This document shows, one piece after another, positions 4,134-52,850 of a stretch of DNA of 64,000 nt. This DNA comes from Margaritispora aquatica. Lineage: Eukaryota; Ascomycota; Leotiomycetes; Helotiales; Discinellaceae. The stretch's first letter is position 1, and every line of letters starts with the position of its first letter. The notes beneath the pieces were generated by a model. That model ran no database searches and had not been told where the DNA came from. It saw nothing but the letters and a program-made list of their open reading frames with translations. The stretch is taken from assembly GCA_007644065.1 (NCBI GenBank), contig VJWN01000001.1, forward strand, positions 2,618,340 to 2,682,339, written 5' to 3'. A program made the translations under genes and the position numbers.

Positions 4134-4660
4134 AAATGCTATCACAACCCTAGAGACTGCCAAGAAGCGACCGTTGTTTCTATTATTATAACGACAGACT
4201 GTTGATTAGTGAGCTAAAGAGAATACTGAACAAAGGACATAATAAAGAGAACGTGAGCAGATCAGGGGGTTGAGAGAGGGAGCCTAAGATAATAGTTGCT
4301 GGGGAGCGCTCTTGATTTAAAAGAGTCATTCAAATTGAGAGTTAGGAAAACAACAAGTCCCATAACCTCTGGAATGGAAAAAATGCTTGATAGAGAGACA
4401 TGCGAGAAAGAATGTGCTATGTTGAATGGTTCAAGTCGCTTATAGGGATATTTCGCTTATTAGTAGCATTCTTCGCAATGTCTTCACTTGAGACAAGTTG
4501 CATATTTGCATCTAGCTAGACGATCTCCATTTCCACAAGAAGTATCTCCGCATCTAGGGAATGAAATGATCAAAGTAATAGATAAGACTAGTCTACATGC
4601 CAAACAAATAATGTCGTGACTTTATGGCTGTAACTGGATGCATAAGTGATTATAAGTTCT
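4134..4660. other. intergenic; 5' flank of the wall-protein gene
   Basis: This 527-bp stretch lies upstream of the wall-protein gene and downstream of the CobW gene's 3' end, both on the minus strand. The minus strand holds a very short upstream open frame (eight codons, start near 4241) before the proposed start. No signal-peptide exon was found on inspection, and nothing else is recognised. Confidence 0.5.
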
Positions 4661-5764
4661 TTATGCGATCTTCTCGACCTTGAGTGAGCCATTTTGGCCA
4701 CCCTCTAATTCTATGAAGCCAGCAGTTTCTATCCGCTTTTTCCACTTCTTAGATTCGTATCTCGCCAGGATCATCGTCATCCTTAAAACAACTCCACTGC
4801 TGGATTCGTGCTCATCGCTTGTCATTCGTGTACATGTCCACCGGCCGAATGCCCAATTTACAATGTACCTTGCCTTATCCGTTGATTTTGGCTCACTTGT
4901 GCTTTCATCTGAGGATATTATAGATGATGACGCGGCGAGAACTGCTTTGATTCGATACACCTCATCTTTTGGAGCGGACTTTAGTAGTTTTCCGAGTTTA
5001 GCCACATCGACAAAGGAGCCTGCTTCGGCCTCGAGAGTAATTGAGAGAACTTCGACCTCAGATTGATGTCCTTTCTCGTGAGTATGACCGTTGGTATGGC
5101 TATGGTCGTGCGAATGTTCTTTGTCCTCATTCTCGCCAAGAGTTCTTGCAAGCCCCCCATCAATACCAAAAACCAAATCGACAGGCACTTTGCCCATATC
5201 ACTTTTCACCCACGCAATTTGTACTTCAAGATCTCCTAATCGATCGAGACATTCGTCCATACGTCGTTCACCCACACTCTCCCATTTGTTGAACACAATC
5301 AAATCGGTGTACTTGGCTTGAATCTTGGCCGTGTAACTTGTGTCTTCATATCCCTTCCAATTCTCAACATCTATCACTGTCACCACACCATCTAGGAGAT
5401 ATCCACCATTGGTTTCTCGTGCCAACCGATTGACTTCCATTGCCAGTGTAGCGGGGAACGCACTCCCACTAGTCTCCACCACAATCCGATCTGGTTGTAC
5501 CTTCTCAGAGAGCTCCTTCAAGGCGACATCCAGCTGTCCAACCATGTTACAGCATATGCAGCCATTGAGGAGTTCCCGAACGCCAGAGATAGCGGAGGAA
5601 GATGCCAACTGGCTGTCGACGGCAAGGTCTCCGAATTCATTCTTGAGGAGAGCCAGCTTATAATTCGGGTTCTGAGCACGTAGTTGAGGTAGCAGATTAA
5701 GGAGAACTGTTGTCTTGCCCGAGCCTAGAAAACCAGTTACGATGGTAATTGGTATGGGCGGCAT
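4661..5764 (-). CDS. CobW/COG0523 metallochaperone GTPase (ZNG1-like)
   Basis: Single-exon gene of 367 residues starting MPPIPITIVTG at the ATG at 5764. It has the G3E GTPase layout: P-loop GFLGSGKT (residues 11-18), the family's metal-binding GCICC (68-72), a guanine-specificity NKWE motif (near 158), and a His-rich insert (about 216-233, HSHDHSHTNGHTH) before the CobW C-terminal domain. In yeast and animals the closest family members (ZNG1) hand zinc to methionine aminopeptidase using GTP hydrolysis; that role is inferred here from the CxCC motif and the His loop. The family assignment is firm. The metal and client protein are not shown by sequence alone. Confidence 0.93.
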   Translation of the reverse strand: MPPIPITIVTGFLGSGKTTVLLNLLPQLRAQNPNYKLALLKNEFGDLAVDSQLASSSAISGVRELLNGCICCNMVGQLDVALKELSEKVQPDRIVVETSGSAFPATLAMEVNRLARETNGGYLLDGVVTVIDVENWKGYEDTSYTAKIQAKYTDLIVFNKWESVGERRMDECLDRLGDLEVQIAWVKSDMGKVPVDLVFGIDGGLARTLGENEDKEHSHDHSHTNGHTHEKGHQSEVEVLSITLEAEAGSFVDVAKLGKLLKSAPKDEVYRIKAVLAASSSIISSDESTSEPKSTDKARYIVNWAFGRWTCTRMTSDEHESSSGVVLRMTMILARYESKKWKKRIETAGFIELEGGQNGSLKVEKIA

Positions 5765-8700
5765 GGTGGAGGTAGAGGGGTTGCTGGCTTATCGAGGTGT
5801 TGATGTCGTTGTAGTTAATTTCTGGTGGGGGGGGGTTCAGTTAAAAATTCTTATCTTATCGGGGAACCTTTCGAGCGTGTTCCTGCCTGAACCACAACCT
5901 GGTAGAGCATCAATTTTGACCCCATTTCATCTCATCTCTCTGAACTCTATTCTAACCTCAGTCAAACAACGAAAACTTATAGCTGTCCAGCGTAATTCAT
6001 ATGTAGGTGCTTTTTCGCGGGTTTCTTTCCTACTTGCAAGTCAATTCGCCAGAACATACGTCGGCGTGGTTGCGATATGAAGGTAAAGGTACATATTTCC
6101 AGGTTTCCATTTCTACCTTATCATATCATATATCACCTGATGCATAAGTTACAGTAGGTAATGAAGCCTTCAGCTCAACTGGTTCGCTGGTGTCTCTCTT
6201 CGAAACAACGGTTGGCTTCCCAGCACAGTATTGCAATACTCGGAAAATCCCATAATTCGAGGACTGGAAGCGCCGTCAAATATGCCGCCTAGCTCTCCTA
6301 AAGAACGAAGCGTTTCGCTGTCGCACGAGTGGCTGCACTGAGTTGGACAAATCTGAGATGTCACTGCGATCTGTGATCAAATCTATCCAATCTACAAAAT
6401 ATATATACCGGTTCTATGCGATACCAGTGTAGCGGAATGTCCAGTCGTAAGTATACCAATGCCAGTCAAGGCATAGTAGTAGTAGTAGTAGTAGTCGGAT
6501 TTGGAGGCTAAATCATGGTGCGGGTTGAAAATTTGGAGATGACTTAGGAAGGATTGTTGAGCTATCACATCGCTCATGGTTATAGTTTTGTCTTCCTCGT
6601 CAGATTTACTTGTCGATCTTGTTTGTGACTTGGATTTCGAACACTCCCAACCAACCTCATCAAACCTTTTTTCTGGCGAGTTCTCCCCGAAGGACAATTC
6701 CAACTGGTCCCAACTTGGGGTAGGACTAGACGACACGTCACCAAATCTCTTGATATCGACCTAAAAAAAAAACTATGAACAGTACCTGAATACGTTCTCG
6801 TTAATCTAGCAGACCAATAGCTAGCATATGCCACCCTACCTCCAAGAAAGACGTGCAACTGTGGAACATTGCATCGCAAGTCAAGTAAGTTATTTGCATA
6901 ACACACCAGCATGTGCAAGCTATGCAGAAATCAGTATGCAAACTGTGTGCCCCATATGCCTCTGGCGGAACTGAATCCCATAGGTCTTCTATATCGCGGC
7001 AATCCTCTGGTCTCTGCGACCTCTGATCCATCTTTTTAGCATGTGGATAGGTAGGTCCCGAGAATCTTCGTGTTTGATGATCTAGGACATTCTAACCTCT
7101 TGGCCCCCAACTTTTATTCTATCACTGGCATTGGTATTCAAGAGAGAAAAGAAGAAGAAAATGGACCGAAGTAACAAATACTGGGAACATGAGCGTCTAT
7201 ATCCATGTGCAAACCATGTTCGCGACCACAAAGATGTTGAAGAAACAAAAGTTACTACCGAGCGGGGAGAAGAATGGGGAGCCAAGGGAGATCAAACATA
7301 CCATCCGAACTTGGCGAACCCGGGAAAAAACCTACAAAATGTAAATCAGCGAATCGTTTCAAGGATGATAGGACCCCATCTGATCTGATCATTTGAAAAT
7401 GGTGGAACCATGAAGACGGAACAAAAGGTCAACTCCGAAAAAGAGATCTTCAGAACAAACAAAAAGTTCCGGGATGATGCTCCTTTGAATCCTTTCGGTG
7501 CTTGTATGTGTGGAGCATATTCTTTTGCCCGTCCCAAAGATCATATTTTCCCCGGCGAAATCAGATCACCAAGAGTTCTCTCAAGGTTCTTCGATTAGAT
7601 ATGGTCAGCAGTGCGAGGGACAATTCCATCAATTCACAAACTACAATATCGCTGTTGGAGCATTGGATCATCAAACGACTGGCTATCTGATGGAGGGGCA
7701 ACGATATTCTGTGAGGTCGCATTGCATACCTTATTACAGGTCCTTTTGTGTGCCAACCACCTGATGCCGATCACATTCAAGAGACTACAACAAAATTTGG
7801 TACGACTTCATGTAATCTTTGCATATTTGAAGGCATCAATCTCAATTCTCCTCAGATTGTTGTTGCGGGCTCAGTCTTACCCAACGTTCTCGCGCCCTGA
7901 TGCCCTGATGGATCAGTCGCCTTGCTAGATGTGTCGCAGCGTCAAGGTGAGCTATTCATACAACTATCTCAATGCCACGTTTTACACATCGACCTCTCCT
8001 TTGCATTTGCTTTAGCGAGACAGCCGGCACTCGAAAGATGACATGCAATTGACTGAGTTTCAGTGATCGGATGAACTTTCAAGGCCCTTGAATTTCCACC
8101 GTCTTAGGCAAGTGATAAGAATGGAGTGACTCGAAACAATCTTATCCAGGGTGTCATGAGAGGGATGCTGTTGTGTTCAGAGGGGGGAAGGATATGTGCC
8201 GTTCTCAGGGGGAGCGATCAATGCTTGCATAAGCGTGCCTGTCTGGGTGTTTCGAAACAAGTGGGCACAACGAGCTCCCGAAAGAGGCACAGGCTGGCGT
8301 TTGTGGCGTGCATTGGAGGCTTAAAAGGCGCCAAAGTGAGATGATGATGGGTTGGATGGGAGGCGCCAATCCTTGCACCGATCCCATCCCATGCCTATCC
8401 CATCCCCATCCCGTGTTTGTGTTTCCTGAGATGCAGCTAAAAAATGCTAAAGTCAGGTACAGCCATAGGAGGGGCAAACGGTACCTGGCCTGGATCCTGA
8501 ATCCTGAATCCTAACCCGGAAATGATGAACGAATTATCCTTGGAGGCGACTTGAATGGGAGTATTCTCTCTCTCCCTCTTCCCTTTTGGATGCCCTCCGA
8601 CATAACCTTCCTCGACCACATCGAAGACCTTTCTTTACCCCTCAACAAACTCAAGCTCAAGAAGAAACCAACCAACCAACCATAACAGACCACATTGTGC

Positions 8701-9825
8701 AGGCTAAAATACACTGCATTGTGTAACTGGTAAGTAATGCATGCACTGTGTCCCTATCTCCTGCCGCGCTCTTAGTTCAACTATCACTGTATCTAAATGT
8801 CTCTGAGCTCTCTTGGCCCAGCACGGCAGTAAAATAGCAATTATTGCACAAGTTTTTTTTCTGTTTTGGCTTTTACTTTCGAACCCACTCCCCTGCATAG
8901 ATCCATAATATAATGCTCTAGAATTATGTGAAATCATGTGAAATGCACTGAATTCTTGACAAGACAGGGCCGAGACGGCGCTGTTTTTGTTTTGACTCTG
9001 AGTCTGGCGCTGACATTGACGCTGGCTGGCGTGCGGGAAGGGGAGGGAGGGAGGTGGGAAATATCATTTGCAGTCTTGCGGTCTTGCGGTCTTGCGGTTT
9101 TGCGGCAGAGCAGACAGGGTTTGGTCACTTTGGTGGGAAACACAGGCACAAGCAAGGTGTGTACGCTCGCACTTTAGCTCGCACTATGTACAGTACAGTA
9201 GTTCGTACCGTACTTACTTACTTTCATAAAAAGTCACCTTCTTCCCTCGCATCTCATTCACTACTCCACCTTCCTTCCTTCTCTTGACCTTCATCGTCGT
9301 CGACCGTCGTTTGTTTCTGACCTGTTTATCTGTTCATCTTTTCACTCTTTTGAATCTGTTCACCTGCGCATCCCTTCCCTTCGACAGTCCTTGTCTCTCA
9401 CACTCCTTGAGATATCAACCTGCAACAAACTCACTCTTTGTACAACTTACAACTTCACCTTCATTCAGATTCTACGTCACATCTCACATCGCATCTGTTG
9501 ATACAGATCTGCCAAACTACACCTCACTCCACGTACATACCAACTCGCCTATTCCTTCCAACATCAAATACATTCAATTGAGTCCGAAGAACTCTTGTGT
9601 GTCTTCAATACTATTATTCATCTGAATCACGAGCTTCGACAGCACAATACTAGCATTGTCCATTGTTCTATTGTTGGAACAAAGGTGAATCTTTTCAGTA
9701 CTCCCGGTGATACTTTTCAACATCAAAACTCTTCGTCCTCGACCTGCGACCCAAAAAAATCTAAGACGATTTACGATACCTACGTTTCTGCATCTAGATC
9801 AACGATTAGCATCAACATATTCAAA
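5765..9825. other. 4-kb intergenic region, including the leader of the DUF1996/WSC gene
   Basis: No convincing protein gene. A poly-G tract (about 5827-5836) sits close to the CobW start. A 114-codon minus-strand frame at 6392-6736 (starting MSSSPTPSWDQL) contains a Tyr run made by a trinucleotide repeat and could be a small gene, but nothing supports it. The last 600 bp (about 9200-9825) on the plus strand is C/T-rich with long pyrimidine runs, typical of a fungal promoter and long 5' leader feeding the gene that starts at 9826. A short direct repeat (cttgcggt) occurs near 9073-9100. Confidence 0.55.
6474..6495 (+). repeat. (AGT)n trinucleotide microsatellite
   Basis: About seven perfect AGT units. 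On the minus strand they read as a Tyr run in a weak open frame. Confidence 0.95.
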
Positions 9826-24126: not shown

Positions 24127-27100
24127 TTATGCTTGAATCATGTTGCCGTATTTCGCAATCTCTTCGTCTGTCAAAGCGGCCATCCACAGACACCTTTCCG
24201 TTACTCCTTCAATTGGAAAAAATTTGTAGAGTTGACTGGCCTCCAGAAGTCTCAGAAGATTCTTGACAATTGCTGCATCGGTACGGCATCGCTCAAAATT
24301 GACCAGAGGATCTGTAGTGGGTGTACTTGCGACTTGGCTTGGTCTTTCTGAGTTTACGAGCAGATCGTGCGTGTAAATTCCGACAAATGGAATGCAGCCT
24401 AGACCAGCACCAGACCCCTCCATCTCCGCTCTCAGATTATAAAAATTTGCAGTAGGTGTGACCAAAGCTTCGAGATCCCTAAGAATTTGTAGATCGGCTT
24501 CTGGAACATGTGCCCATGTTTCGGTGAGCCTAGAAAGGTCCTTTGAAGTAAGAGCAACAGTAAGTTGCGTCATGGTAGCAAAATTTCGATACTTTCGACA
24601 GTGGGCGGCGATATGAATGTATTTGATCAAGCATCGAACACGCTCCTCCAAGTCTTGTGTCAAGACACACTCAGACACTGCCCATTTAACCATGATGTTG
24701 AATCTAGCGATAACCACCTCGACGCCTCTGGGTTCCTGTGTACGCAGAAAATCGACCCAGGATCTGGCTTCGGTTGTAGCATCCTTCCATCGCATTTCGA
24801 TCAAGTCTTTCCAGTCGATCTCGTTAAGTGCATCTTTCTCGATTAGGGTGAACTGCTGAGCAAGTATCTGCGAATCAAAGGCGAGGATGAAAGGAAGATG
24901 GAGTGATGTTTTCCTGGAAGGTTCCACAATACCATTGAATGGATGAGGATAGAGTGATGGAGACGCTCCTCGCTCGCCTCCAAACGAACCAGAGAATGCA
25001 GCTGTAGGTGTTATCTCTGGCGTTGGGGGAAGGGGTGTTCGAGGGGGGCCAGAATCTTGAGGACCAAGCTTGAGTGCTTGTACCAAAGTAATTGGTGGAG
25101 ATGGAGGTTGGAATTGAGGGGCAGAAGGAAGATTTATCTCTTTGAATGCTGGCGCCATCACCTTAGGAGAGAATTCCTGGGCCACTGGCACATCATGATC
25201 TGTGTACTCGTTTCTTGAAATAATCTCGAGCGACATTTCCGATGATAGATCGCTTCGACTATCACTGTCCAGGTATGATTGATCAAAGCTTGGCCGCGTC
25301 TCGCCAACTGGAATCCTTCGGATGCTATCAGTTTCATCGATGAAATCAAAAGAGTTTACATGAGAGGATTCTGGTGTTTGAAGATCATGATATCTCTCTT
25401 TGCTTTGATCGCGTAGAACAGATTGGTTGGACCAATCCACGGTGTCTCTCGGGTCAATACCATCATCAGTGAAGCCACGTTCAAGTAATGGTATCGAGTT
25501 GTACGATTCTACCGATCTGGCTGATGGTAGAATGGTGGAGGGTCGCATTCCTCGTGGCTTGTACGCTGAAGGTTTTGATTCATCTGGCAGAGCTTGCTGC
25601 AATGGCTGCTGCGGTCGGTATGTCGCTATTGGAGGAGATACTCCTGTAACAACCTTGCCTTGACGATGCCTTCGCTTTTCGTCTCCATCACCAAAGATTA
25701 ACGACCCAACGTCGATAACAGCTGCTCCGAAGCTATCATGCTGGTGTTGAGCATCCTGGGATCTAGCTTTGGACTGCGTAGAAGCATTAGAGCGACGTTG
25801 CTCAAACTTGCCCTCGAGCTTCAACAAAGCAGACTCGATTCCGCCATCATCATCCTCGTCGTCAGGAATCTGAGCAAGCATCTGTGCCTCTTTCTCAAAG
25901 GAGGGTCGCATAACAGGCTGCGATGAGTGTGTGCTAAATAGTGAAACAGGTCTTGGGGTTGGCTCGGCCATCTGCCCTACTGAAAACGTGGACGGATTAT
26001 GCTGTCCCTCATTATAAATGCTCTCAACACGCTCCACACATTCGGACAACAAGTACGAGCTGCGAACTGACTCTGAGTAGGTTGTGAGGGAACCGGTTGA
26101 CATGGGTCTTCTAAGGGTGTGAGAATCCAAGTCACCAACATTTGAGACAGCTCTCAAATCACCCCCTGGTCGCCTTCGGAGCACTCGAAGTGGTAGTGGG
26201 ACATGATCAATATGCGAAAGGCGCTCAATGCCCTCTGATTCTGAGAATGTGGTAGCATCAAAACTCCGCTCACTTCTATGCTTGGTAAGCCCACTGTGAA
26301 AAGAAGCATGTCGACGAAGAGAAGTGGACCGTTTAGATTTGTAAGACAAGCCTTTTGGTCCATGGATCGCGAGTCGGCCTGGTGGACGATGACATGGAGA
26401 ACGCTCCTCTTCTTTAGAAGGACGTGAATCTACAATAAGGGAAGGGGTCTCTTCAAAAGAAGGGGAGCGCGCGGTGATGCGTTCCCCAAGAAGATGCGAA
26501 GATCTTCTTGGGGTTCCCATTGCCGCATCGGGTGGAGTAGAAGGAGGAGTTGGTCCTCCAGAACGGTGCATAAAGGCATCCGGAAAAGTCTCGGATGATA
26601 TATTGATTTGCAGCGCACCAGTCATGACTGGTAAATCCGAAGGCATTGTATCGTCTACAATAACGATCGATTTGCTGCCTGTTGTCATCTCGCTGATAGG
26701 CATACGGCGGTTATTAGGTCTTGTTGTTTCCATTGTGGTATCTGGACGCAAGATTGAGTAATGGAGATCGGGTTCATGTACGGTGCTAATATCAGATGCG
26801 TGTTCGCGCTGTTCGGTTTCTCGTTGCTCGGTGTCGGCCTCTTCCTTGACGGCTCTTTGGAAATGCTCAGCAGCTTCAGCTCCCAGAAGGTCAATTCGTA
26901 AAGGTGTTTTAGCGTGGTTATTTCGCGGTCGAGCTTGTGGGACGACAGCCGTACCAGGCAATCGATTAACAGTTGCTCCACGCACTCCAATTGGGGGCAT
27001 GAAAGGAAAACTGCCTTGAGTTGGGGATGCATTGGGGCTCGAAACATTTCTTGTGCTCAGTGCTCGTCGCACGGAACCCAAAAGTCTCTTCATCCCAGGG

Positions 27101-29436
27101 CCAGACATTGCTGAAGGGCCTTTGGAAATGGATAACCCAGGAAGAAACGTGGTCCGACCTCCTTCCATTGGTGTACTTGGGGCAATAACTTCGACAAAAG
27201 ACTGTCCCGGTGGGAACAAATTGCCCCGTACAAGACTTCCAGCATATGGAAGAGCAAGCAATAGTTCCGTGCTTTTGAATATGACTTTCTGGACCGGTGC
27301 CTGCGGAGCTCGTCGATCTCGGAATGAGTCTGAAAAGCTTGCACTGCGTTTATGGGTATGAGTCGGACGCACTCGCTTGCCAGTAAGAGCCTTTGGTGTG
27401 ATTGCTATGGGAAGGCCAGAATCATAGATGGAGCTAGCGGGCACTGGATGTGCTCCCAATGGTTGAGATGCTCCTGGGCCACGAGCTCTGGATGGGAAAG
27501 AGCAAGAGACAAAATCTTCACTCACAATGCTGGATGGCGACATGGGCGGTTCTTCTCGGTCATCTGATGTCGATAATCTTTGCGTGATGATAGGATCCAT
27601 CATCGATTCGATATGCCCAGCCCGAGAGACATCTGCAAAGAAGTTTGGTCGCTCGAGTTCCAACGTATCCAGAGCGAAGTCAGGCTGAATGATACCTTCC
27701 AACACTGGAGGGCCCTCAGGGTGAAGAGTCCAGAAACCTGGGTCTAATTTGGGATTTCGGGAACCAGCAATCCCTCCTGGCATGATCGGAATATCAGAGC
27801 CCAACTCGGTGTCAAATTCAGGACCATCCCAGTACAATGCGCAGACTCTCCTCCAACATTTCTTCAGCTCGCCAAGAATTTTCAAAGGGACCTTGGTGTT
27901 CGCTCCGTCCAGCGCTAGCTCGTCGACAAAGTTGTTGAGCAGCTGACAAAACGAGCTCCTTAATTCATAATCGATGACGAAGTCATCAAGAAAGTAATTC
28001 AAAATCCAGTGACGAATTGCTACAAAGGTCCTGACCCGGACCACTGTTCCTGTCTCATCACCCCTTGAAAGCGCCCACTTCAAACGGGCAATAAGCATGT
28101 ACAATAAATCCGTTGTATCCAGGAACCCTCGGAAGGTGAGAAAGAAATCAGACAACAGGTCGTAATCTACAAATGTGGGGGAAGTAATCTCGGCCACAAG
28201 ACGTGCTGGTGTCGCTGCTTTGATTCCCCCACTCGCCGAGTAACGAACTACTGATGGATGGTCACAAGAAGGCTTGAATGTGAGGGTGTCGAACATATCC
28301 GGGATTATGGGTGTACGCTGGCGGACTACTCGAGGGACTGGTGAGTGGACCGAGGAGCGAGCAAATGGACTGGTCGGCATGACTGGATAGAGCGGTTGAG
28401 GAGAAGCATCTGAGTGACGGCGAGAAAGAATCTGTGTGGGTCTCTTGCTAGGGTTCTTGGAGGAATCTTGGTGGGAGAAGATACTCGAACGCATGTCATC
28501 GTTTGTGGTGTATGAGGAACCTCGAAGGAAGGCTGTTCCTTTCATGCTGAATCTTGGTGTACCTAGCTTATATGAAGGTATAGGAACCTCCAGCATCGGA
28601 ATACCGTCAAAAGTCTCCACAGTCTTGGATCCGGTTTTTGGCCTCTCGATAACCACTTTGAATGCGCCAACATCGGAATCCTTGACTGGCGCGTATTGTT
28701 CGTCTATTGTTGAGACCGAATGGGCACGTTTGGGGGTAGGTCGCTGTGCAGCAGCATTCTGAGGAAAGTAGTTCTCTCGGCAAGCCACAGCAGGTGTTGA
28801 TGGAGATCTAGATGGGGTCCAAATGCTGTCGCGTTGAGTTTCGTCGGGATCATTGCGAGAGACGAGGGCATCCAGTCCAGCAGTACTAGGAGGGGTGATT
28901 GGAAAGACGAACGGTGGCTGGGGATATCTTTGATTCGTAGGCCGTACGGTAGGGCTATCGTTTTGGTCAGCTAGTGTTATTGTCGAATGTGTCCTCATAT
29001 GTTTGAGTAAACAGGCTACACATATGTCTTACCGCAAGTATATCCTCCCATTATTGCCAACCTTTGCGACGGTAAATTGTCGCCCTTCCCTCCCAGCCGA
29101 AGTACCATCGGGTGCAACATCGTTCTTCATATCCTCCACTTCCCTCTTTGCGCGTCGATTGATGCTATTCTGCTTGCGCAGTCCATCCTGCATCTGCTTC
29201 CTTCTAATTGCATCTGCCGATCGATTCCCCGTTGGCTTCGACCTCGGCGCGGCTGAGAGGGTAATTCCAGTCGCTGGTCCCCCATCCAATTCCTTCACAG
29301 TCGTTGCGATCTTGTTGTTGCTTGACTTTCCCAAACGACCTCGAGGAGTCATTCGATCTCGTTGTCGCTGTCGAAGGCTCTCGGGAGTATGTGTCCTGGC
29401 CGGTTGCAGGACCGGAAATGGCATTGTGTTCTCCAT
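24127..29436 (-). CDS. LTE1: Ras guanine-nucleotide exchange factor, LTE1-like
   Basis: Exons 29033-29436 and 24127-28954 (78-bp intron, GTAAGA...GATAG, junction reading YLR-PTVRP) give 1743 residues. A RasGEF N-terminal domain occupies roughly residues 370-520 (segments LVAEITSPTFVDYDLLSDFF and LNYFLDDFVIDYELRS), followed by a long Ser/Pro-rich unstructured middle. The catalytic RasGEF (CDC25) domain is at the C-terminus (about 1490-1743: ILAQQFTLIEKDALNEIDW, AAHCRKYRNFATMTQLTVAL, GLGCIPFVGIYTHDLL). This two-end layout is that of LTE1, which in yeast promotes mitotic exit and polarity. Target GTPase in this fungus is not shown. The initiator at 29436 is the first ATG of a well-behaved exon; the ATG at 28998 lies in the intron. 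Confidence 0.92.
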
Positions 29437-36933: not shown

Positions 36934-37014
36934 CTCTCTGACGGGGAGTCGAACCCCGATCTCCCGCGCTTTGTGCTTGACAAGCGGAAATCATGACCGT
37001 TAGACCATCAAAGA
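36934..37014 (-). tRNA. tRNA-Asp (GTC) with a 9-nt intron
   Basis: Reading the minus strand from 37014: acceptor stem TCTTTGA/TCAGAGA (one G-U pair) plus discriminator G, D arm TGGTCTAACGGTCA, anticodon stem TCCGC/GCGGG with loop TTGTCAC (anticodon GTC at 36979-36981), and T arm CGGGGTTCGACTCCCCG with a perfect B box. The nine bases 36969-36977 interrupt the loop after position 37, the canonical intron site. Without them the tRNA is 72 nt. A T6 run about 60 nt downstream (plus-strand A-run at 36870-36875) may end transcription. Confidence 0.93.
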
Positions 37015-37818: not shown

Positions 37819-39869
37819 TCATCTAGAAATGCTATGCTTGGTAATAGTTCTCTCTGGTGGGTTCAATAAATTCTCGACTATGCGCCACATACTAGACTTC
37901 CCAGCGACAGGCAACGGTTGTCGTTCTGTGTACTTTTGTGCCGCAGTACCAGCAAAATCTGCCCTCGTACTTCGCTCATTCAGCGGTGTATGGTAAGAGT
38001 TGACCTCTGGGTTTGGTTCTTTGTGAGTCGGATTTGACCGCCCGTTACGCCCAAGTGGTTCTGGAACAGATTGCTTCGACTGAGCTCTTGATCCATCGGC
38101 TCGTCGAGTCACATCTGGAGAATATTCCAAAGACTTATTTTCTCTCGGGGTGGAAAACTGGCTTGTATATGATAGGCCTGTGCCATTAGCATTAGATTTC
38201 AGAAATGTTAAAGAGTCTATGTCGTTCGATTCTAGCTCCCGGTTCCCGGTGATGGCATGTTGGCTTTGCTCTCCTTGTTTCTCCATCTTAGTGACGTTTG
38301 TTTGGTGTTCAGCTATCCAGGTCCAGTGGCCTGTATGCTCTCGGGAGGATTCACTCGGACTCTTAGGAATATCGTGAGTAGCTGATGCAGATCTCTCACT
38401 AGTAAGGGCACTCCCAGAATTTTGAGTAGGGGATGTATATGAATGTGGTTTTTGGCGCATATGCGATGTTTTACCCTTCTGTTCTTGTTCTTGCCTTTTG
38501 GAATCGGCAGCGGAGTCTGGATGTCCCTCATTCATCACATCCGTCATTTCCATCTTCCTGAGACTAGCATCAGGATTTCCCCGCTGACTGAGTTCGGCTG
38601 TGCCGTCTGAGCTAAATTGAAACTCCCCGGCTTCGAAATCCTTCAATGGCAGAGGAATCGGTGAAAGATGGGCAGGTAAAAATGGTTTGGTGTGAGAAAC
38701 CATGGCAGGTCCGTCTTGGCCGTCTTTGTGAGACTTGGTGTTCATTTCAACATTTTGACTGTCTTTCTTTTGATTGCGAACTAGAGAAATATGGAGCCAT
38801 GGTGCTTCAACAATATTTTTAAACGCCGGTCGGTTCGTGGGAAGTGGCACCAGAATAGATTTGACAAATTTGATACCTTCAGGACTGATTCTCTTCGCGA
38901 GTGGTGCTTCCGGGAAAGGTCCTCCTCTGCATAGCGCAATAAGATCTCTAGGATACTTCAAAAACAGCACTTGTGCAGCCATTATCTCGTAGATAACACA
39001 TCCAAAAGACCACACATCACATGCATTCGTGTAAGTGTCGGACTCTTCATCCTCACCGTCTACGTAGTGAGAAACCTCCGGTGCAAGATAATTTGGCGTG
39101 CCTGTAGACGTTCGAAGGACTGTGCCTGAATTTGATACCCGTTTTGAGATGCCAAAATCGCCTATCTTGATCCACAAGTGCGGTCTCCTCTGCACCATGA
39201 AAATATTCTTGAAGGTAATTGTATTAGCCTGCTGAGAACTACAACAGAAGGGATAGCGGCATTTGTACCTGAGGTTTTAGGTCTCTATGAGCAAAGCTCT
39301 CTTCATGCATGATCTTCAAGCCAGTGGCCAGCTGTAAAGAAATTGCCCTCGCATCATCCTCGCTCAGATCCAGTGATATATATCGATCAAGAGGCCCATT
39401 GGCAATGTATTCCATAGCAATGAAAATGCTATCTCTATTTTCGTACCAACCGAAAAACTTAACAAATACTCCATAATCCAGGAACTAGACGGGCTTAGCA
39501 GCTGCTAACTTTATCCAACTTGTTTCATTGGGAGGAAGTTCCATACCTTCTGATGTGTAAATTTGTGAGTGCAATTAATTCTTGCCGAAAATCGAGCTTT
39601 GCATATTTCATTTTTGCCTTATACAACTGCTTCACAGCTCTGTAGTTATACGTACTACATTCTTGATCATCAATCCGTTGCTGCAAGTGAATGGTTCCAA
39701 ATGTGCCAAAGCTGAGCTCAGGTTCTTAAGGATGCCATGTCTCTATTAGCGCAACCTTCCGAAATCCTTTAGCCCTATCGACCTTGTACGTTGTATGTAT
39801 GACCTTCTCAGGGTTGTGTTCAAATATGGTAAGATATTTGTAGTCTTCTAGGTCATCGATAACGGACAT
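37819..39869 (-). pseudogene. serine/threonine protein kinase, inactivated (one nonsense, one frameshift)
   Basis: Exons 39547-39869, 39269-39484 and 37819-39207 follow clear splice signals. Kinase motifs in order: a glycine-rich loop (FGTFGTIHL) with the AVKQL lysine in exon 1; the FIAMEYI hinge and catalytic loop HRDLKPQ ending exon 2; then N in exon 3 with KIGDFG, the GTPNYLAPE activation segment and DVWSFGC. A long Ser/Gln-rich tail follows. All catalytic residues are present, so the ancestor was an active kinase. Two lesions are visible. A TAA at 39726-39728 follows ETWHP (CAA expected as the simplest source). Near 39563 one base is missing: the frame after IALT shifts, and the shifted frame reads FTHQK up to the donor, which would join exon 2 in phase. 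Exons 2 and 3 remain open, so loss looks recent. The alternative is assembly error. Confidence 0.8.
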
Positions 39870-40433
39870 CGTCGCGAAAGGCGGCTACGAAGCGCAGCAA
39901 CGATTGGTATAGTTGACTGTAAGCACCTGTCCAAAAACTACTATTAGCGATCGCCACGTCCATAGAGCTGCGCAACATGCCTGGCTCACCTTTTCATTGC
40001 CCTAGCCATCAGATGAGCTGTGTAATCAAAATTGCTTTCACCATCTAGGTTACGACCTGAGGTGGGCATGATCTGAACACCACTACTCAGCCTCGCCCTG
40101 CACACATTTGCAGCACACAGCACAGAGTCTGCAACTATGAAGTAGGTACCGTCTTTGACAATCAGTACTCATCTAAGAAGAATGTAACAAAATTGCAATT
40201 TTGCTCCCTCCATCCTTTGCAAGAATGCTGGTATTTCTATAACCGATTATACGTCAGACCGATCAGGGACTATTAAACAAACCGAGCTTTCTGCTACAAA
40301 TGTATATCTTACCTATTATACCTTGGAGTAAACTAATGTACTGAGAAGCACTTCATCTCGTCGGAGCTCTTAGCCAGAGTAAACATTGTCTGATAGTTAG
40401 CGAAGGAACTCTCCTCTCCTGATCCGATTCATT
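39870..40433. promoter_or_regulatory. divergent intergenic region between the two relic genes
   Basis: 564 bp separate the start codons of the kinase relic (-) and the pseudokinase relic (+), a shared-promoter arrangement. No specific element is recognised. Confidence 0.5.
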
Positions 40434-42044
40434 ATGGAAATTGGTGTTTCGGTTGTCAACTTGGCCGATATATGTATTAGGCAATTAATTTTACAACCTC
40501 TTAGATCTAGAATGCTCGCTAATATCAATAGGTACGGAACTCTTCTCGTCAAGACCTGCAAGTCGTACAAGCACGCAGATCAAGAAGTTAGAGAGTCGAT
40601 CTTGTTGATTGAAAGTCGATGGATTAAGATTCAACGCCAATTACAGCTTCTTCGAGAAGTCTCATCTAGCCTCGACGATGATTACTAAATCTATCAGCAA
40701 TCCGTCTTACAAGTGCTTCATGGGAAGGTTCAATCAGCCATAACTTTGGTAAGTAGTGTGTTTGGCAGTGCAGACAACGAGATTTTAGTAAAGAATGTTT
40801 CTTCTAAGAAAGGAGCGACAAAACGAGCGAAATATGCAGTCTGGGTCAAGAGTAGTCTCAAATCCGTCTTGATTGATTTGAAGGACTGGAGTGAGGTTTT
40901 TGATGTTTCTTGGTACCTCATTATACGGCTTGCAAGCAAGAGCTTGGATGACGCTCTACTACCAGTCGCAGCAATGGAAGGGGATCCACTTTCCACAGTC
41001 AAAGACTTGAGAAATGCCATTAAGACCAGCTTCAGCGAGGAGAACAACATTATTGAGAGTACAACAGTATTTCTTGATGCAAATTTGTTTAGTAAAGACC
41101 AGGCGTCTTTGTCAAACTCAGCATCGGAGATCTGGTCCAACACAGCTCTCAAGACTCGTTATCTTGTTGATGAGCCCACACACACCTCCAATGTTGCAGA
41201 TATCTGTAGGCTTGCCAAAATCCTGAGGAAGATTGATCCAATGACATTTGGAATAATGGGTTGTGAAGGAGTGTTGAAGACAATTGGCGACACTGAATCA
41301 CCGTTGATATACAGACTTGTTTTCAATCAACCTCGAGCTTGAGAAGATCCCCAATACCTACGAGCTTCTCTTGAAGCTCTGTGTAGCGGATACTCATTGG
41401 ACGAACGCTTGTCCTTGGCACAGCGAATAGCCAAAGCAGTGATGTTCATACACTCTTCAGGCTTTGTTCACAAAAATATTCGCCCGGAAACAATTTTGAT
41501 ATTTAGGGATCAGGGGAGTCGAGACCTTCAAGCTTTCTTGACAGGATTCGAAAACTTCCGCTTAGCAGTGGGAAAGACCTCATATCAAGGGGATGATCAC
41601 TGGCAAAAGAATATATATCGGTACCCAACACGGTAGGGAACAAAGCCAGAGTCGGACTACACTATGTAGCACGATATATACTCTCTTGGCGTTTGCCCCT
41701 TGGAGATTGGAATGGGAAATTCTTTTGTACTTTACAAGACTGGCAAAGAAGACCCACAACCAAGCCCAAGCATCCTGATAGCTACCGATTCTTCGATCAA
41801 AGATACTCGCAAAAGAGCGTTCGAAACAAAACGAGCTCTGGTAAATTTGGCACGAGAAGAACTGCCTGCTAGAATGGGAAGAAGATATACTGAAACAACG
41901 GTGACTTGCTTGACCTGCCTGGACAAAACTGATAACGCATTCGGGGACGAAAAGGATTTTCTGGATGAAAATGGTGTTCTTGTAGGTGTGAGATATATTG
42001 AAAAGGTATTGTTTCCTCCTGAGTATATCATGGAACATGACTAA
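40434..42044 (+). pseudogene. helical-domain + pseudokinase (MLKL-like architecture) with four in-frame stops
   Basis: One frame runs from ATG 40434 to TAA 42042 without indels but with stops at 40686 (TAA), 41340 (TGA), 41634 (TAG) and 41667 (TAG). The N-terminal third is a predicted helical domain (VNLADICI, SYKHADQEVRESILLIESRW, LLREVSSSLDDDY), resembling the HeLo-like N-terminal domains of fungal kinase-like proteins. The C-terminal half is kinase-like, but the catalytic loop reads HKNIRPET (normally HRDxKxxN) and the DFG region reads LTGFENF, so it would be a catalytically dead pseudokinase. It ends with the conserved-looking LAREELPARMG and VTCLTCLDK segments. A 51-bp in-frame stretch (40481-40531) looks like a GC-AG intron. 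Each stop is one C-to-T change from CAA, CGA, CAG and CAG. Family naming is inference; the stops are direct observation. Confidence 0.75.
40481..40531 (+). other. probable GC-AG intron of the pseudokinase relic
   Basis: AG/GCAATT donor, a GCTAATATC branch-like site and AATAG acceptor. Removing 51 bp keeps frame and brings ADICIR directly next to YGTLL, a better domain sequence than with the intervening 17 residues. A GT donor six bases upstream would break the frame. Confidence 0.5.
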
Positions 42045-42397
42045 ATAAAGCAGGTTTTGACAGTACTCCTCGATATCAAGCTTTGAGAGATTGAGGTAGC
42101 TGCTCGAAGGGTAGAGGATTTCTCAACTCAATTTGGAGACTCAGTGAAATGTATTTTGAATTGGTCATGCAACACGTATGTTTAAGCTTAAATCTCTAGC
42201 GGCTAGGATCTGGGTAGTTTGTCTTGGCGTACCTAGCTCTAAAATAGCAGGCACTTGTTTCGGTGCTGTACATTTGAAATCCTCCTTTATTTATCATTAC
42301 CATTTAACGAAGCTTTATTTCCATATTACTGGTCAAAAAGCAACCTATTGCCCCCTTGAAAACGAAACATTTAAGCATACTGTACAATAACGGCATT
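42045..42397. other. intergenic
   Basis: 353 bp of AT-rich sequence between the pseudokinase relic and the start of the lipocalin-like gene; a short frame at 42178-42390 shows nothing recognisable. Confidence 0.6.
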
Positions 42398-44756: not shown

Positions 44757-47368
44757 ATGAACATTCGTCAGAATCTATTTGGCCAGGGCCCTAGATCCAG
44801 CCGTGAAGCACCACCAAGTGGATACGGTCGACCATCACAACTCCCTTCACGAGACGACACTCCAATGGCGGGTGGATATGATGACCCGAGAGGCAGTGGT
44901 GGTTATTCTGATCCAAGAGCTGGATATGGAGCCCCAATGCCATCACCGAGGCAGCAGGCTATGCCATCAAGGCCACCAGTTGGAAGACAACAGCAACAAG
45001 GACCCCCTTCACCAGCACGGAGAATGACCCTGAGAATCGCAAAGGTTGAAGATAAGACTCTTGCGAATCAGTATATCTTCGGAAATCTGTAAGTGATGTA
45101 GTACTAGATGTCATCTGGAGAGAGGCTGAATACACTTAGTTGCGCCGTATCACCGCGAGACTTCCCACCTTCACGAGATGGTTCGGATTTGTACATACTC
45201 CTCAACGGCCGAAACGTCGTGACAGCTCGACCTCTGGACTCTTTCCAGCCAGGATGTATAAGCTTGTCAGACCCTCAGCGAACATGGTGCGATGTCGGGA
45301 TGATGGATCCCATAACGGCTGAAGTATATGATCCCTTCGTTCAAGGACCTGCTGTGTACTTAGGATCTTTGGACGTCGAAGTAGGGTTTGCCTCAGTGAA
45401 GAAGATCACAGAGACGCCATTCGATCAAGATGTCCTGGCTGATGTCTTCATCAAGCAATTCGAGAACCAAGTATTCTCACCTGGCCAAAAAATCATCATG
45501 GATTATAAGAACATTCCACTATTGTTCATGATCAAAACTGTCCAACTAGTTGATCTGAGCATGGAAAAATCAGCCCCAGCCCCTACAGTCTCAGTGCCCA
45601 CAGCTAGAGGCATACTCACACGGAACACACCAATCACATTCTACAAGGATGCAAAGTCACCCATCAAGTTGAAGGGATCGTCGAAACGGCCGGCCGCGAA
45701 CTCGATCATTGCTCCGGATTTCAAATTCGAAGATATGGGCATTGGTGGACTGGATACTGAATTCAGTGCTATCTTTCGAAGAGCTTTCGCGTCTCGTATT
45801 TTCCCACCTGGCCTCATCGAGAAATTGGGTATTCAGCACGTGAAGGGTATTTTGCTTTATGGTCCTCCTGGTACTGGAAAAACCCTTATTGCTCGTCAAA
45901 TTGGAAAGATGTTGAATTCTCGAGAACCAAAGATTATCAATGGTCCCGAAGTGCTGAATAAGTTTGTTGGTCAGTCAGAAGAAAACATTCGAAAGCTGTT
46001 CGCGGATGCAGAAAAGGAGTACAAGGAGAAGGGAGACGAGAGTGGTCTTCACATCATTATTTTTGATGAATTAGACGCCGTCTGCAAGCAAAGAGGTAGT
46101 GGTGCCGGTGGTGGAACTGGTGTAGGGGACAGTGTTGTCAACCAGTTGCTTTCGAAGCTCGATGGTGTAGAACAACTCAACAACATCCTGCTCATTGGAA
46201 TGACTAACCGGATGGACATGATTGATGATGCTTTACTCCGTCCTGGGCGATTAGAAGTACACATGGAAATTTCGCTACCAGATGAGGCAGGCAGAGCACA
46301 AATTCTGAAGATTCACACTTCAAAGATGCGAGACAACAATGTAATGGATAGGGATGTTAATGTTGCTGAACTTGCTCATCTGACGAAAAATTTCTCTGGA
46401 GCAGAGATCGGTGGTCTTGTCAAGTCAGCGTCGTCCTTTGCATTTAATCGTCATGTCAAGGTTGGAACAGTTGCAGGTGTAAGTGACGATATCGAGAACA
46501 TGAAGGTTAACCGAGGGGATTTTTTGAAAGCTCTTGACGAAGTAAAACCTGCTTTTGGTGTCTCTGAAGAGGAGCTGGAGACCGCTATGAGTGCTGGAAT
46601 ACTACACTATAGCCCTCATATTGGAAACATTCTCAAGGATGGCCGTTTATTCGTTGATCTGGTCAAGAATTCTGCTACCACGTCTCTGCTTTCGGTACTT
46701 CTCTACGGACCTCCTGGATCTGGCAAAACTGCTCTAGCTGCTAAGATGGCTAAAGATTCCGAGTTTCCATTCATTAAGCTCGTGTCAGCTGAGAACATGG
46801 TTGGATTTAGTGAAATGGCGAAGATCCAATACCTGAATAAAGTCTTCACAGATGCGTACAAGTCGCCACAGAACATTGTTGTGTTGGACAATATTGAGCG
46901 TATCATCGAGTGGGTCCCCATCGGACCTAGATTTTCAAATCCAGTTCTCCAAGCTTTGATGGTTCTTCTGACGAAGCAACCTCCTTCCGTAAGTCATATC
47001 CTCTCCAGTATCTCACATGTCCTAAGATATTTCAGCCTCGTCGTCTTCTCATCATTGGTACCACTTCGCAACGCTCCGTGATGCGCCAACTCGACTTGCA
47101 GCAAATTTTCAATCGCGAACTAGCAGTACCAAGCATTAATACGCATGCCGAGCTTGCAGCTGTGCTTCGTGAAGTCCAAGCCTTCGACAGCGAGTCTGAT
47201 CTGGCTGAGTCTTTGAACGAATTGAGAGATATCACTGGTACTGATCAGGTGGGTGTGGGAATTAAGAAGTGTCTGCTTGCTATTGAGTCCGCAAAGCAGG
47301 AGGTGGGGAATGTGGCATCTCGATTTGCGGAAGAGATGAGGAGTCAGATGGATGCGAGTAGGGACTAG
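44757..47368 (+). CDS. SEC18: SEC18/NSF vesicle-fusion ATPase
   Basis: Exons 44757-45088, 45140-46988 and 47036-47368 give 837 residues. A Pro/Gly/Gln-rich N-terminal extension (about 100 residues) precedes the NSF N domain. D1 ATPase: Walker A GPPGTGKT (residues 352-359) and Walker B IIFDELDAVCKQRG. D2: Walker A GPPGSGKT (about 634-641) with VVLDNIERIIEW, the degenerate D2 Walker B typical of NSF. SEC18 with SNAP disassembles SNARE complexes after membrane fusion. Both introns (51 and 47 bp) keep the known protein continuous. The start is the ATG at 44757; a GTG three codons upstream is not needed. Confidence 0.97.
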
Positions 47369-47827: not shown

Positions 47828-49888
47828 TCAGTTCTTGCTCTTCTTCTTCTTCTTCTTCTCAGACTTCTCAACATCCTCTTCTGACTTGCGCTTCTTGTTG
47901 CTGGATGGTGTGCTTGCAACCTCCTCAATGACAACCGCAGTCTTTACAGTGACTGGTGTGCCATTAGTGGCGGGGAGCTTGCCCTTGGCGAGCTTCTTCT
48001 TGTATTTCTTCAGACTGAGACCAGCAGCTTCGGCGGCCTTGATATCAGGGTCTTCGGCAGTCTCGACGACAGTCACCTCAACTTTGGCAGGTGTAGATGT
48101 TGCAGACTTAGCGGCCTTTGCTTGTCTGCGTGCCTCGCGGTCTGCACGCCTAGCCTCCTTTGCCTTTCGCTCAGCCTTCTTTGTTGCCTTTTCATCCTTC
48201 TTCCGTGCCTTCTTAGGTGGTGAGGATGAGTCTGAAGTATCTGCTGAAACAGAGCCAGCATCGGACATATCAACATCTTCATCCTCAGCCTTGGTACCAT
48301 TCAAGTTGGCATCGGCATCGGCCATCTCTTCATCCTCAGAGTCCTCTGCATCTGAGACCTCCTGGATGAGGGGCTTCGCCTCTTCAACCTTAGCCTTTTT
48401 CTCTTTCTTTTCCTTTTTCTCCTTCTTGGACTTCTTCTCGGAGACTGGAACAATAGCAGCGGCCTCATCACCATCAAGTCCATCAGCATCAGCATTGTAC
48501 TTGCGCGCCTCCTTGACCTCCCACTTGCCAGGGGTCACTGCAGCTTTGCCATTCGGGGCAATGGCAACACCACGTGGAAGAGGTGCCTTGCCCTCCAAGG
48601 TTCGTAGATGACGCTCGATCTTGGCTCTTGATTCAACACCCAATGCAGACCTCTCTTCATCATCAACATCATCACCCTTTCCTTCACCTTGTGCACTCCA
48701 GTCTGAGAGAGCGTCCACACGGATACCAATTGACGCCTTCGCTGCAAGCATACGGGCGATCTTTCCCTTGTTCTTTCCGGTGGCCTGACCAACCAAAGAA
48801 GCGTGGTAAATGAGACCGTACTTAGGAGTGTCGTGCTTGGTCTTCAATGCTCGGAACAAGGCCTTCTCAGCACCAAGGATTTGAATAGTACTAGCAGGGC
48901 TCTTGGCAAGACTCATGAGAGATCCAGAGTGGGCAATCAATCGAGCTCCAACTAACTCGCCAACCAGCTCAGTCAAGTTGGGGGCAATAGCAAGCATACG
49001 AGCAGTCAAATAGCTGGAAAGTTGTTGACGGTATTCCGTGAACCCAACGACCTGTTCTGCCAACAACTGAATGTTCTCCAAATCTTCCTCGGTGATCTCA
49101 GTACCCATACTGACTTCGGCGGCCGCCTTGACAGCTGTTTCAATCTCCTCTGGCAGGATCTCGGACAAGTCAGTCTTCGAGCAGTTTTGACGCATACCAG
49201 CTGTCAGAATGATACGAGCATAGGCCAAATTGTCGTTGATAATCTTGCCCATCTCAGGGAAATGCCATCCGTACCATTCTTTAACTCTCATGGCATATGT
49301 ATTGAGTTCCTTATCCAAATCATCCAGCAATGCAATAGCTTGAACGATCATAGTATCGACCTTGTCTGGGGAGAACTTAAGCTTGTGACGAGACAGCGAG
49401 TGGGAGAGACCAAGCGACATGGTTGCGATGTTCTCCTCGGCAAGACCTGGAATGAGGGACGAGAGGTGGTCGCGAATGGCGCGGTAAATCTCATTGGTGG
49501 TGGAATCAGAGACTGGTGTAAGTGTGATACCTGGGAGCTTGTTGATAGCCTGGGCGAGCTTAGGATCTGCCACTGCTAGAGTTGCCTTTTTCTCATCCTT
49601 GAGGGTGTCCAAAAGAGAACTCAGTAACGGCGAAACTTTTCCTTCTACGAGAGCAGCAACTTCCTCCAAAGCTTGTGCAGCGCTCTCAAACTTCTCAAAC
49701 TTCTTCAACTTGAGACTACATACAGAATTAGTGAGGACTAAAGCTCAATTGGAGATAACTTACAGCTCGTTCACGCTTTCAGCACTCTCTGCAACATCAG
49801 AGAAGTCCTCCTTCTTTAAAATACTCTTGGAAGTGCTTTTGAATAAAGCATATCCAGCGGACGTCTCGCTCAAAATGAAGACACCCAT
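47828..49888 (-). CDS. NOP58: NOP58, core protein of box C/D snoRNPs
   Basis: Exons 49764-49888 and 47828-49715 (48-bp intron, GTAAGT...GTAG) give 670 residues. Start [17 protein letters not shown] and [11 protein letters not shown] are the NOP5 N-terminal domain; the NOP domain follows ([52 protein letters not shown]). The C-terminus is a long Lys/Glu/Asp-rich tail with a final KKKKKKSKN, typical of nucleolar Nop proteins. It acts with fibrillarin, NOP56 and SNU13 in 2'-O-methylation and 18S rRNA processing. Head to head with VMA6. Confidence 0.97.
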
Positions 49889-50162: not shown

Positions 50163-51412
50163 ATGGAGGGTCTTATGTTCAACGTTGACTGCGGGTAATT
50201 GCGCTCCATTACTCAATCATAACGTTGACTTTCTGACATCTTCGTAGCTACATTGAGGGAATTGTGAGAGGATACCGAAATGGCCTTCTTACTGGTCAAA
50301 ATTACAACAACTTGGTTCAATGCGAGACGATTGATGGTGAGTTCTTATTTGCAGTGTACGCAGAGTCATTAGCTCATCGACTTTTAGATTTGAAGCTCCA
50401 GCTGGGGCCTGCTTATGGCGACTTCCTCGCATCCCTCCCACCTAATCCTTCAACGTCGTCACTTGCCGCAAAGACGACCGATAAACTGATCTCTGAATTC
50501 CGATACGTGAAGGCAAACTCCACTGGGGCTCTAGCCAAGTTTATGGACTATCTGACCTATGGATACATGATCGATAATGTCGCACTTCTTATCACCGGAA
50601 CTCTCCATGAACGAGATACTCGCGAGCTGCTCGAAAGATGCCATCCTCTGGGTTGGTTTGAGACAATGCCAGTCTTGTGTGTCGCCACCAATATCGAGGA
50701 ATTATACAACAGTGTGTTGATTGAGACTCCTCTTGCGCCATATTTCAAAGGAAGCTTGAGCCACCAAGATCTGGATGAATTGAACATCGAAATTGTTCGA
50801 AACACTCTTTACAAGAATTATCTTGAGGACTTCCACAACTTCGTCAACACCGAGCCATCGATGGCAGGGACGCCTACGGCTGAGGTCATGACCGAGATAT
50901 TGGAATTCGAGGCAGATCGACGAGCCATCAACATCACTTTGAATTCTTTTGGTACTGAGCTTCAAAAGGCAGACCGAAAAAAGCTATACCCAGCCTTCGG
51001 ACGTCTTTATCCAGAAGGATCATATATGCTATCTAGAGCTGATGATATTGAGGGTGTGCGGTTGGCTGTTGAGGGTGTAAGCGACTACAAGGGCTACTTT
51101 GATGCTACCGGAATGGGCCAAAGCAGCACTGGGGCTGGAAACATGAGTGGCGGTGTTGGTGGTGATGGAAAGAGTCTAGAAGATATGTTCTACCAGAAGG
51201 AGATGGAGATCTCAAAGGGTGCCTTCACAAGGCAATTCTCATTCGCTATTGTATACGCATGGGTAAAGCTACGGGAACAGGTATGTCAATGCTACTTTGT
51301 TCACAAAAGACTTATTGACCATTTACAGGAAATTCGGAATATCACATGGATTGCGGAGTGTATAGCCCAAAACCAGAAGGAGAGGATTGGTAATTACATT
51401 AGTGTATTCTAG
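50163..51412 (+). CDS. VMA6: V-ATPase V0 subunit d
   Basis: Exons 50163-50194, 50248-51280 and 51329-51412 give 382 residues. Start MEGLMFNVDCGYIEGIVRGYRNG and the C-terminal REIRNITWIAECIAQNQKERIGNYISVF-type end (split over the last intron) are diagnostic. The subunit couples the rotor to the c-ring of the vacuolar proton pump. The last intron (48 bp) is in frame and could be misread as coding. A Gly/Ser-rich insert (about residues 295-320) lengthens it slightly relative to yeast. Its 3' end faces that of the uS15m gene 170 bp away. Confidence 0.96.
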
Positions 51413-51582: not shown

Positions 51583-52597
51583 TTACAAGCTGATCTCGCC
51601 TTGCCATGTTCCCTCGCTCAAACCTAGTGTATTGACAAGATGCTGCCATCTATCCCCACCACGTTCCTTCTTCCTCAAGTATTGTAGAAGCTTTTGTCGT
51701 TTATGAACCATCACCCTCAGATTCCTTTTGTTCACCTTATCCTTCTGCCCGCCCTTCAATTCCAATTGATTTGCCAGCGCTCGAATCTTTGCAGTCAAAA
51801 TTGCAATCTGCACTTCTGAACTCCCAGTATCTGGACCAGCTCTAGGTGTCTTCTCCGTGACTGGTGTGTCACCCAGGATGGATGGATTGACTTGAAGTCG
51901 AGGCCGTAGTGTTTGATCTGTCTTGTGCCTGCCGAACGTGTCTATGCACCGCACAGTATTTGCCCTTGTCTTGTCCTTCTGACTAGCATTGGCCATGCTC
52001 AAAATCCTCGCCATAGCTATTGAAGCGGTCTTGTGACGTTCCAAGAACAACTTCGTCTCAGCTGCCTCCTTAGCTGGGTCAGCAGTATCACGAATCTTCG
52101 CTTCAACGGGCTCAACGAGGGCGATAGAGTGCTTGAGGGAAGCTTTGAGTTCGGCGGGTGTGAGGAAGTGGTTGAGCATTGCATCTTCTGCAATTGGAAT
52201 ATCGACACCTATGTCTTTTTCTGGGTCTGGTTTCGCTTCCACCAACGTCGTCGATCCTCCAACATCGTCGAATGATTCCAGGAATGGTGTGGTAATGCCT
52301 CGGACCGGATCTCCCATCTCAATTGTCCTCTTCTCCTGTAGCTCTGCCCGTCTCGATAAATTGGCTTCTTTCCTCGACTTGGCTTGTGCTAATGCATATG
52401 GATCCTTATACTTTCTTCTCTGTGCCATAGTGACCACATTGGCTGAGGCTATGATGGGAAGTTGCGCATTGGATTTAGGGGCGCTTCGAATGCATACTGT
52501 GAAGTGATTAGTATAAGCAAGTATATATGCTTTGTATACAGGATCGCTCACAACTAGATGCGCCGAAGCGTGAAGGAAGAGGTATCCGAGGCGGCAT
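51583..52597 (-). CDS. MRPS28: mitochondrial small-subunit ribosomal protein uS15m
   Basis: Exons 52552-52597 and 51583-52496 (55-bp intron, GTGAGC...CACAG, branch CTAAT) give 319 residues. The S15 domain is at the C-terminus (TGSSEVQIAILTAKIRALANQL, VNKRNLRVMVHKRQKLLQYL). The N-terminus MPPRIPLPSRFGASS is basic and hydroxylated, fitting a mitochondrial presequence. A longer open frame using an upstream start runs through the intron and is rejected. The yeast counterpart is MRPS28. It is divergent from the RPS0 gene. Confidence 0.94.
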
Positions 52598-52850
52598 TTT
52601 GGTCTTGATATATCACTCCTGTCGATGCCTACTGATGCCATCCAAAATCTTTAGAAGTCTCCAGATCACATGATCTAAGATGCATGAGACTAGCCTAGTC
52701 TTTAAACGGCCTAATGGTTTCTGCCTGAACTTATGCCTGAATTTGTCTAGCGAAAGTTCGAACCCACACAGAATTTCCACAAACTTCAACGTCGATCTGC
52801 AAGATATTTCGACAACTTCAACCTGATAATCTTCAAGTCAAACCACAAAG
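52598..52850. promoter_or_regulatory. divergent promoter, uS15m / RPS0
   Basis: 253 bp between the start codons of a mitochondrial and a cytosolic ribosomal protein gene. A pyrimidine-rich leader is absent on the RPS0 side; the last 60 bp before its ATG is AC-rich. Confidence 0.6.

Follow-up and report, generated by a model that had tools for sequence, protein, structure and literature searches.

A broken pair of divergent kinase and helical-head pseudokinase genes in Margaritispora aquatica as a candidate relic of a RIPK3-MLKL-like cell-death module

The stretch of DNA analysed here (hereafter the window) comprises 64,000 nucleotides of the ascomycete Margaritispora aquatica (contig VJWN01000001.1, positions 2,618,340 to 2,682,339) and holds two broken genes lying back to back: a pseudokinase gene with a helical N-terminal head on the plus strand, and a conventional kinase gene on the minus strand, with a shared intergenic stretch of 564 bp between their start codons (39870-40433). 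The pseudokinase frame starts with an ATG at position 40434 and keeps a single phase through 42044, interrupted by four internal stops: TAA at 40686-40688 (residue 68), TGA at 41340-41342 (residue 286), and TAG at 41634-41636 (residue 384) and 41667-41669 (residue 395). Such a low stop density is not rare on its own, as four stops or fewer occur in 2.9% of the 1608-base frames sampled from the window. The frame is recognised as a true gene relic because of its homology, since the translation with its stops masked as X is 63% identical to the best intact protein over 99% of the length.

An earlier note, made from the sequence alone, had described this relic as one 1.6-kb frame with four stops and no indel. 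The phase, the stops and the relic status were all recovered, but the coding sequence is probably not uninterrupted. Well-modelled relatives, among them P0009 (from Xylogone), P0010 and P0014, lack seventeen codons (40481-40531), and several relatives finish with a peptide encoded downstream of 42006-42053. The gene models of relatives vary at the N-terminus, with P0001 retaining the insert and others beginning late. Alignment with these proteins points to a gene with two introns, spanning 40434-42086 and 518 codons including the stop. Exon 1 (40434-40480) would encode the opening of the first head helix and be followed by an in-phase GC..AG intron of 51 nt (40481-40531). Exon 2 (40532-42005) would cover the remainder of the helical head, which ends at about 40965, and the bulk of the pseudokinase, which begins at about 41050. 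A GT..AG intron of 48 nt (42006-42053) would then hold the TAA at 42042, which is thus predicted to be intronic, and exon 3 (42054-42086) would carry the true stop. Besides both introns, the earlier note chiefly overlooked the broken divergent kinase neighbour.

The X-masked frame was scored against 7995 candidates (E up to 0.001) and matched 664 proteins, the best 120 of which were listed and provide the column counts given for this family. Judged by these alignments, the window gene is a relic from a large family of helical-head pseudokinases, whose nearest named members are mostly from Leotiomycetes. HKN replaces HRD (41469-41477) and GFE replaces DFG (41544-41552), in agreement with the loss of the catalytic Asp and of DFG noted earlier. 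The same holds for the listed relatives: Asp occupies the HRD position in 2 of 120, and the position of the DFG Asp is held by Gly in 119 and Arg in one, never by Asp. Homologs with ordinary HRD and DFG motifs, which would have spoken against the earlier description, did not turn up among these 120. According to the alignment, the altered motifs are a family trait and not a product of decay, and catalytic loss through decay was rejected as an explanation because the listed relatives have the same loss. A kinase fold with lost catalytic residues, as in MLKL-type proteins, is present. Between GFE and the YRHP segment, in the pseudo-activation loop, residue 365 (Thr; 41577-41579) is the sole column with Ser or Thr in all 120 listed relatives (Thr 111, Ser 9). 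Pfam DUF7580 (PF24476) partly covers the pseudokinase in P0001 (30.0 bits, cut-off 27); it exceeded the cut-off in this one of the 10 relatives scanned and had no match in the window protein.

The earlier note had also proposed a HeLo-like N-terminal domain fused to the pseudokinase, in the layout of MLKL. Structure models of the family do display an N-terminal helical head, with the helix order found in MLKL and HeLo-like proteins, and both the fusion and the MLKL-like layout are supported, but membership of the head in the HeLo type is unproven. Pfam HeLo (PF14479) matched neither the window protein (E up to 1) nor any of 10 relatives (E up to 0.1), and three hhalign comparisons of the head with HeLo were all weak (probabilities of 14.6, 19.3 and 22.1%). 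Relative P0014 matched PF17111, presumably the family formerly named Helo_like_N, at an E value of 0.071, far below the model's cut-off. Fold comparison with the head alone was suggestive, returning middling and unspecific helical-bundle matches with MLKL among them. The 50 entries displayed did not include HET-s, which excludes nothing, and a search with the whole protein returned kinase-fold entries only and is uninformative on the head. Hydropathy of the first helix was not distinctive, and many gene models of relatives miss exon 1.

The partner kinase gene extends over 37819-39869. Its first exon (39564-39869) encodes an N-terminal extension, the glycine loop and the VAIK-type Lys; a second piece (39269-39472) carries HRDLKP, and a third (37819-39210) the DFG motif, the C-lobe and a tail without recognised domain. 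The Lys, HRD and DFG motifs are all present in these pieces, and the first glycine of the loop is a Ser. An in-frame TAA (39726-39728), which aligns with a sense codon in relatives, stands directly ahead of the glycine loop, and matching residues resume in another phase within 39544-39566 (placed by hand, near 39564). Thus, both members of the window pair are broken. This kinase had 445 matches, of which 120 were listed and the 50 nearest used for motif counts. The N-terminal extension appears in the consensus of these 50, 36 of which match its pattern. All 50 have DFG, and 48 have an HRD-type motif, the exceptions being P0144 and P0152, the latter starting downstream of the motif. WD40 occurs in 16 of the 50, and ankyrin families are listed for five kinase relatives (P0124, P0142, P0143, P0159 and P0161), of which P0124 was domain-scanned. 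The tail of the window kinase had no domain match, WD40 included, and its nearest relative, P0121, had a WW match. Excerpts of PMC12881547 report repeat tails on fungal cell-death sensors. In P0124, from Glarea lozoyensis, the partner-type kinase with its ankyrin tail also has a long N-terminal stretch (residues 1-200), helical by eye and with no Pfam match at E up to 0.1.

The linkage of the two gene types is not confined to the window. At least 139 kinase matches in the genome were merged to 99 loci and set against 11 pseudokinase or DUF7580 loci, five of which have a kinase within 3 kb, at 876 bp (C2), 971 bp (window), 1056 bp (C4), 1378 bp (a second C2 locus) and 2145 bp (C47). At the C19 locus the kinase match is 5.4 kb away, and no kinase match was found near the pseudokinase-type loci on C30, C5, C3 and C10 or near the second C1 locus. 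The binomial probability of this association is 7.4e-7 at 3 kb and 4.1e-7 at 6 kb, duplicated pairs not being independent. Among four further HeLo loci, one lies near a kinase match (323 bp).

Three paralogous pairs accompany that of the window. The divergent C2 pair (C2:257500-266500) is apparently intact and consists of an open 633-residue HeLo-pseudokinase frame (3529-5427) beside a kinase (5768-8999) that has an ankyrin match, below the cut-off, in the next frame. Its head is clearly HeLo (E 2.7e-34; HET-s 2wvo, E 8.7e-7), and its pseudokinase half matches the window family with an hhalign probability of 99.9% (E 2.8e-36). In the C47 pair (C47:2907000-2916900), the pseudokinase paralog is interrupted in frame by three TAG and one TAA, and the kinase beside it is followed by repeats that look WD40-like by eye (5064-5998; 6.9 copies of 135 bp, 93% match). 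The two stops between this kinase and its repeats may belong to an intron. Near-identical repeats mark fungal non-self genes. At C4 (C4:290500-299500), the pseudokinase match shifts frame where the C47 match stays collinear, and in-frame stops interrupt the kinase. Two of the four pairs are damaged in both genes, a third at least in its pseudokinase, and the fourth looks intact. By position, the window and the paralogous pairs each place an executioner-like gene beside a sensor- or activator-like gene, as in two-gene clusters.

In five further assemblies, too, pseudokinase and kinase relatives seem to lie on the same contig, as judged from the lists of 120 and 118. Contigs were equated by identical size in bases together with the same organism (three cases) or the same source (two cases), and size equality by chance occurred once within one list (3723 bases, different sources). 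The putative shared contigs are from Rhynchosporium graminicola (RCO7_11528 and RCO7_11526), Rutstroemia WRK4 and Stipitochalara longipes, together with contigs of 5157 and 83424 bases. Adjacency is shown for the 5157-base contig only and is likely from the Rhynchosporium tags, a large shared contig being no proof of it.

On balance, we consider it probable that the window pair is the dead remnant of a RIPK3-MLKL-like two-gene cell-death module, in which a kinase and a helical-bundle pseudokinase were encoded divergently. The linkage of an active-type kinase to a helical head and an invariant Thr/Ser suggests that phosphorylation releases the head. In intact relatives, the kinase would probably act as sensor or activator and phosphorylate the pseudokinase, with the invariant Thr/Ser in the pseudo-activation loop as the likeliest target. 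This would free the helical head for membrane attack and cell killing, as RIPK3 does with MLKL, in a setting of self/non-self recognition or defence. The phosphorylation of one partner by the other, the attack on membranes, the killing of cells and the biological function are all inferred. We extend the proposal only tentatively to filamentous ascomycetes at large, which may possess a linked necroptosis-like module, often back to back, that pairs a sensor kinase with a dedicated helical-head pseudokinase gated by phosphorylation and that is now collapsing in M. aquatica (both members at the window and C4, the pseudokinase at C47).

An executioner is not the only role that a helical-head pseudokinase could have. 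Pseudokinases often regulate kinases, and the product of the window gene might instead have been a regulator, scaffold or guarded decoy of the neighbouring kinase, its head serving for oligomerisation or docking. The failure of HeLo profiles to match the head and the unspecific nature of the helical-bundle matches would suit such a role. However, in the C2 pair a pseudokinase of the same superfamily is fused to a clear HeLo domain, which a known fungal executioner also carries, and the helix order agrees with MLKL and HeLo-likes; we regard the regulatory alternative as rather unlikely. It is more doubtful still that kinase and pseudokinase adjoin merely through the copying of a few ancestral pairs, with no joint function. 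The pairs of this genome are indeed paralogous, so that the binomial test overstates significance, and some pseudokinase loci have no kinase neighbour. Yet the two genes stay together even where the pairs vary in orientation and in tail domains, and further assemblies appear to show the same association.

The decay that ended the proposed module in the window looks ordinary and fairly recent. At least 35 of 36 near relatives agree at 86 columns, and the window protein departs at five of these, two of the five being stops, against 0 to 2 departures in each of 14 relatives compared, a measure that does single out the relic. At columns conserved in 95% of the 120 listed relatives the window protein departs at 4 of 64, again with two stops, a measure not distinctive alone, as 6 of the 120 depart at four or more. 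Stops are in excess over missense changes at near-invariant sites with P between 0.055 and 0.105, which is suggestive but not decisive.

The earlier note had attributed all four stops to C-to-T changes made by repeat-induced point mutation (RIP). Three of them do sit in columns dominated by one residue (in 92, 119 and 120 of the 120 listed relatives) and are compatible with C-to-T, but the column of TGA 41340 is mostly hydrophobic (Leu in 76 of 120) and does not fit such an origin. The pattern is weak, because the probability of at least three C-to-T changes among four stops ranges from 0.006 to 0.16 for a transition bias of 1 to 6. Compared with the surroundings, as the earlier note had proposed, the indices of the frame are equivalent to those of the whole window (0.714 and 1.276 versus 0.685 and 1.298), and the genome search revealed no duplicate DNA copy of the gene. 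Neither the raised indices nor the duplicate that would mark a RIP-mutated gene being found, this origin of the stops seems very improbable. Sequencing or assembly error is even harder to accept: a single genome is the source, but the four stops are of substitution type without any indel, further lesions affect the neighbouring kinase and two paralogous pairs, and the window frames with RasGEF, AAA, Nop and V-ATPase matches run long without stops. The earlier suggestion of live stops that A-to-I RNA editing rescues during sexual development can practically be dismissed. Two of the stops are TAG, and stop-containing kinase genes are edited in Fusarium, but internal stops so corrected are all of UAG type, UAA edited to UGA remains a stop, and such editing was not identified in apothecia of Botrytis, a Leotiomycete (editing data from excerpts of PMC11156358). 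The other two stops here are one TAA and one TGA, and the partner kinase is broken too.

The neighbours of the pair in the window are ordinary, with matches to RasGEF (24130-29028), AAA ATPase (45108-47078), Nop (47831-49744), V-ATPase AC39 (50237-51409) and ribosomal S15 (51586-52650), and a tRNA-Asp gene lies on the minus strand (36934-37014). Elsewhere in the genome, an open frame at C5:390329-393715 (496-2505) has weak HeLo (E 5e-7) and DUF7580 matches and no kinase nearby; another long frame overlaps its end and runs on. At C19:458900-468800 (981-9491), a DUF7580 frame lies near frames recognised by eye as a subtilisin-type protease and a patatin, and this locus is possibly another cell-death cluster.

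Animals have pseudokinase executioners gated by a kinase, and plants have MLKL-like proteins. In excerpts of reviews, fungal executioners are triggered by NLRs, amyloids or proteases. If the present proposal is true, phosphorylation-gated killing would exist in fungi too, with activator and executioner side by side and testable in tractable moulds. It would also inform the question of an ancestral or a repeated origin of the kinase-pseudokinase switch, and the decayed pairs would show how such a system is lost. The architecture class is already known, and no account of a linked kinase partner was found in the open-licence PMC literature.

Among known families, DUF7580 covers part of the pseudokinase in some relatives but has no match in the window protein. 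HELL-kinase/pseudokinase proteins belong to the same architecture class and are called reminiscent of MLKL in excerpts of PMC12881547, which do not describe a linked kinase partner. HET-S and HELLP with their NLR partner genes form fungal two-gene cell-death clusters, and the C2 pair has a clear HeLo; an NLR bearing an amyloid motif is reported as the trigger of those clusters, whereas here a kinase lies beside the pseudokinase. Gasdermin-protease clusters place a pore former beside a sensor enzyme often carrying WD40, ANK or TPR repeats (excerpts of PMC12881547), with a kinase here in place of the protease and a helical-head pseudokinase in place of the gasdermin. In animal necroptosis, RIPK3 phosphorylates MLKL and thereby releases its executioner head (same excerpts). 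Unlike their animal counterparts, the fungal genes adjoin, the partner kinases carry an N-terminal extension of their own and often WD40 tails, and the likeness of the fungal head to that of MLKL is limited to a middling fold match. Both systems nevertheless combine an active kinase with a pseudokinase that bears an N-terminal helical bundle and a conserved Ser/Thr in its pseudo-activation loop.
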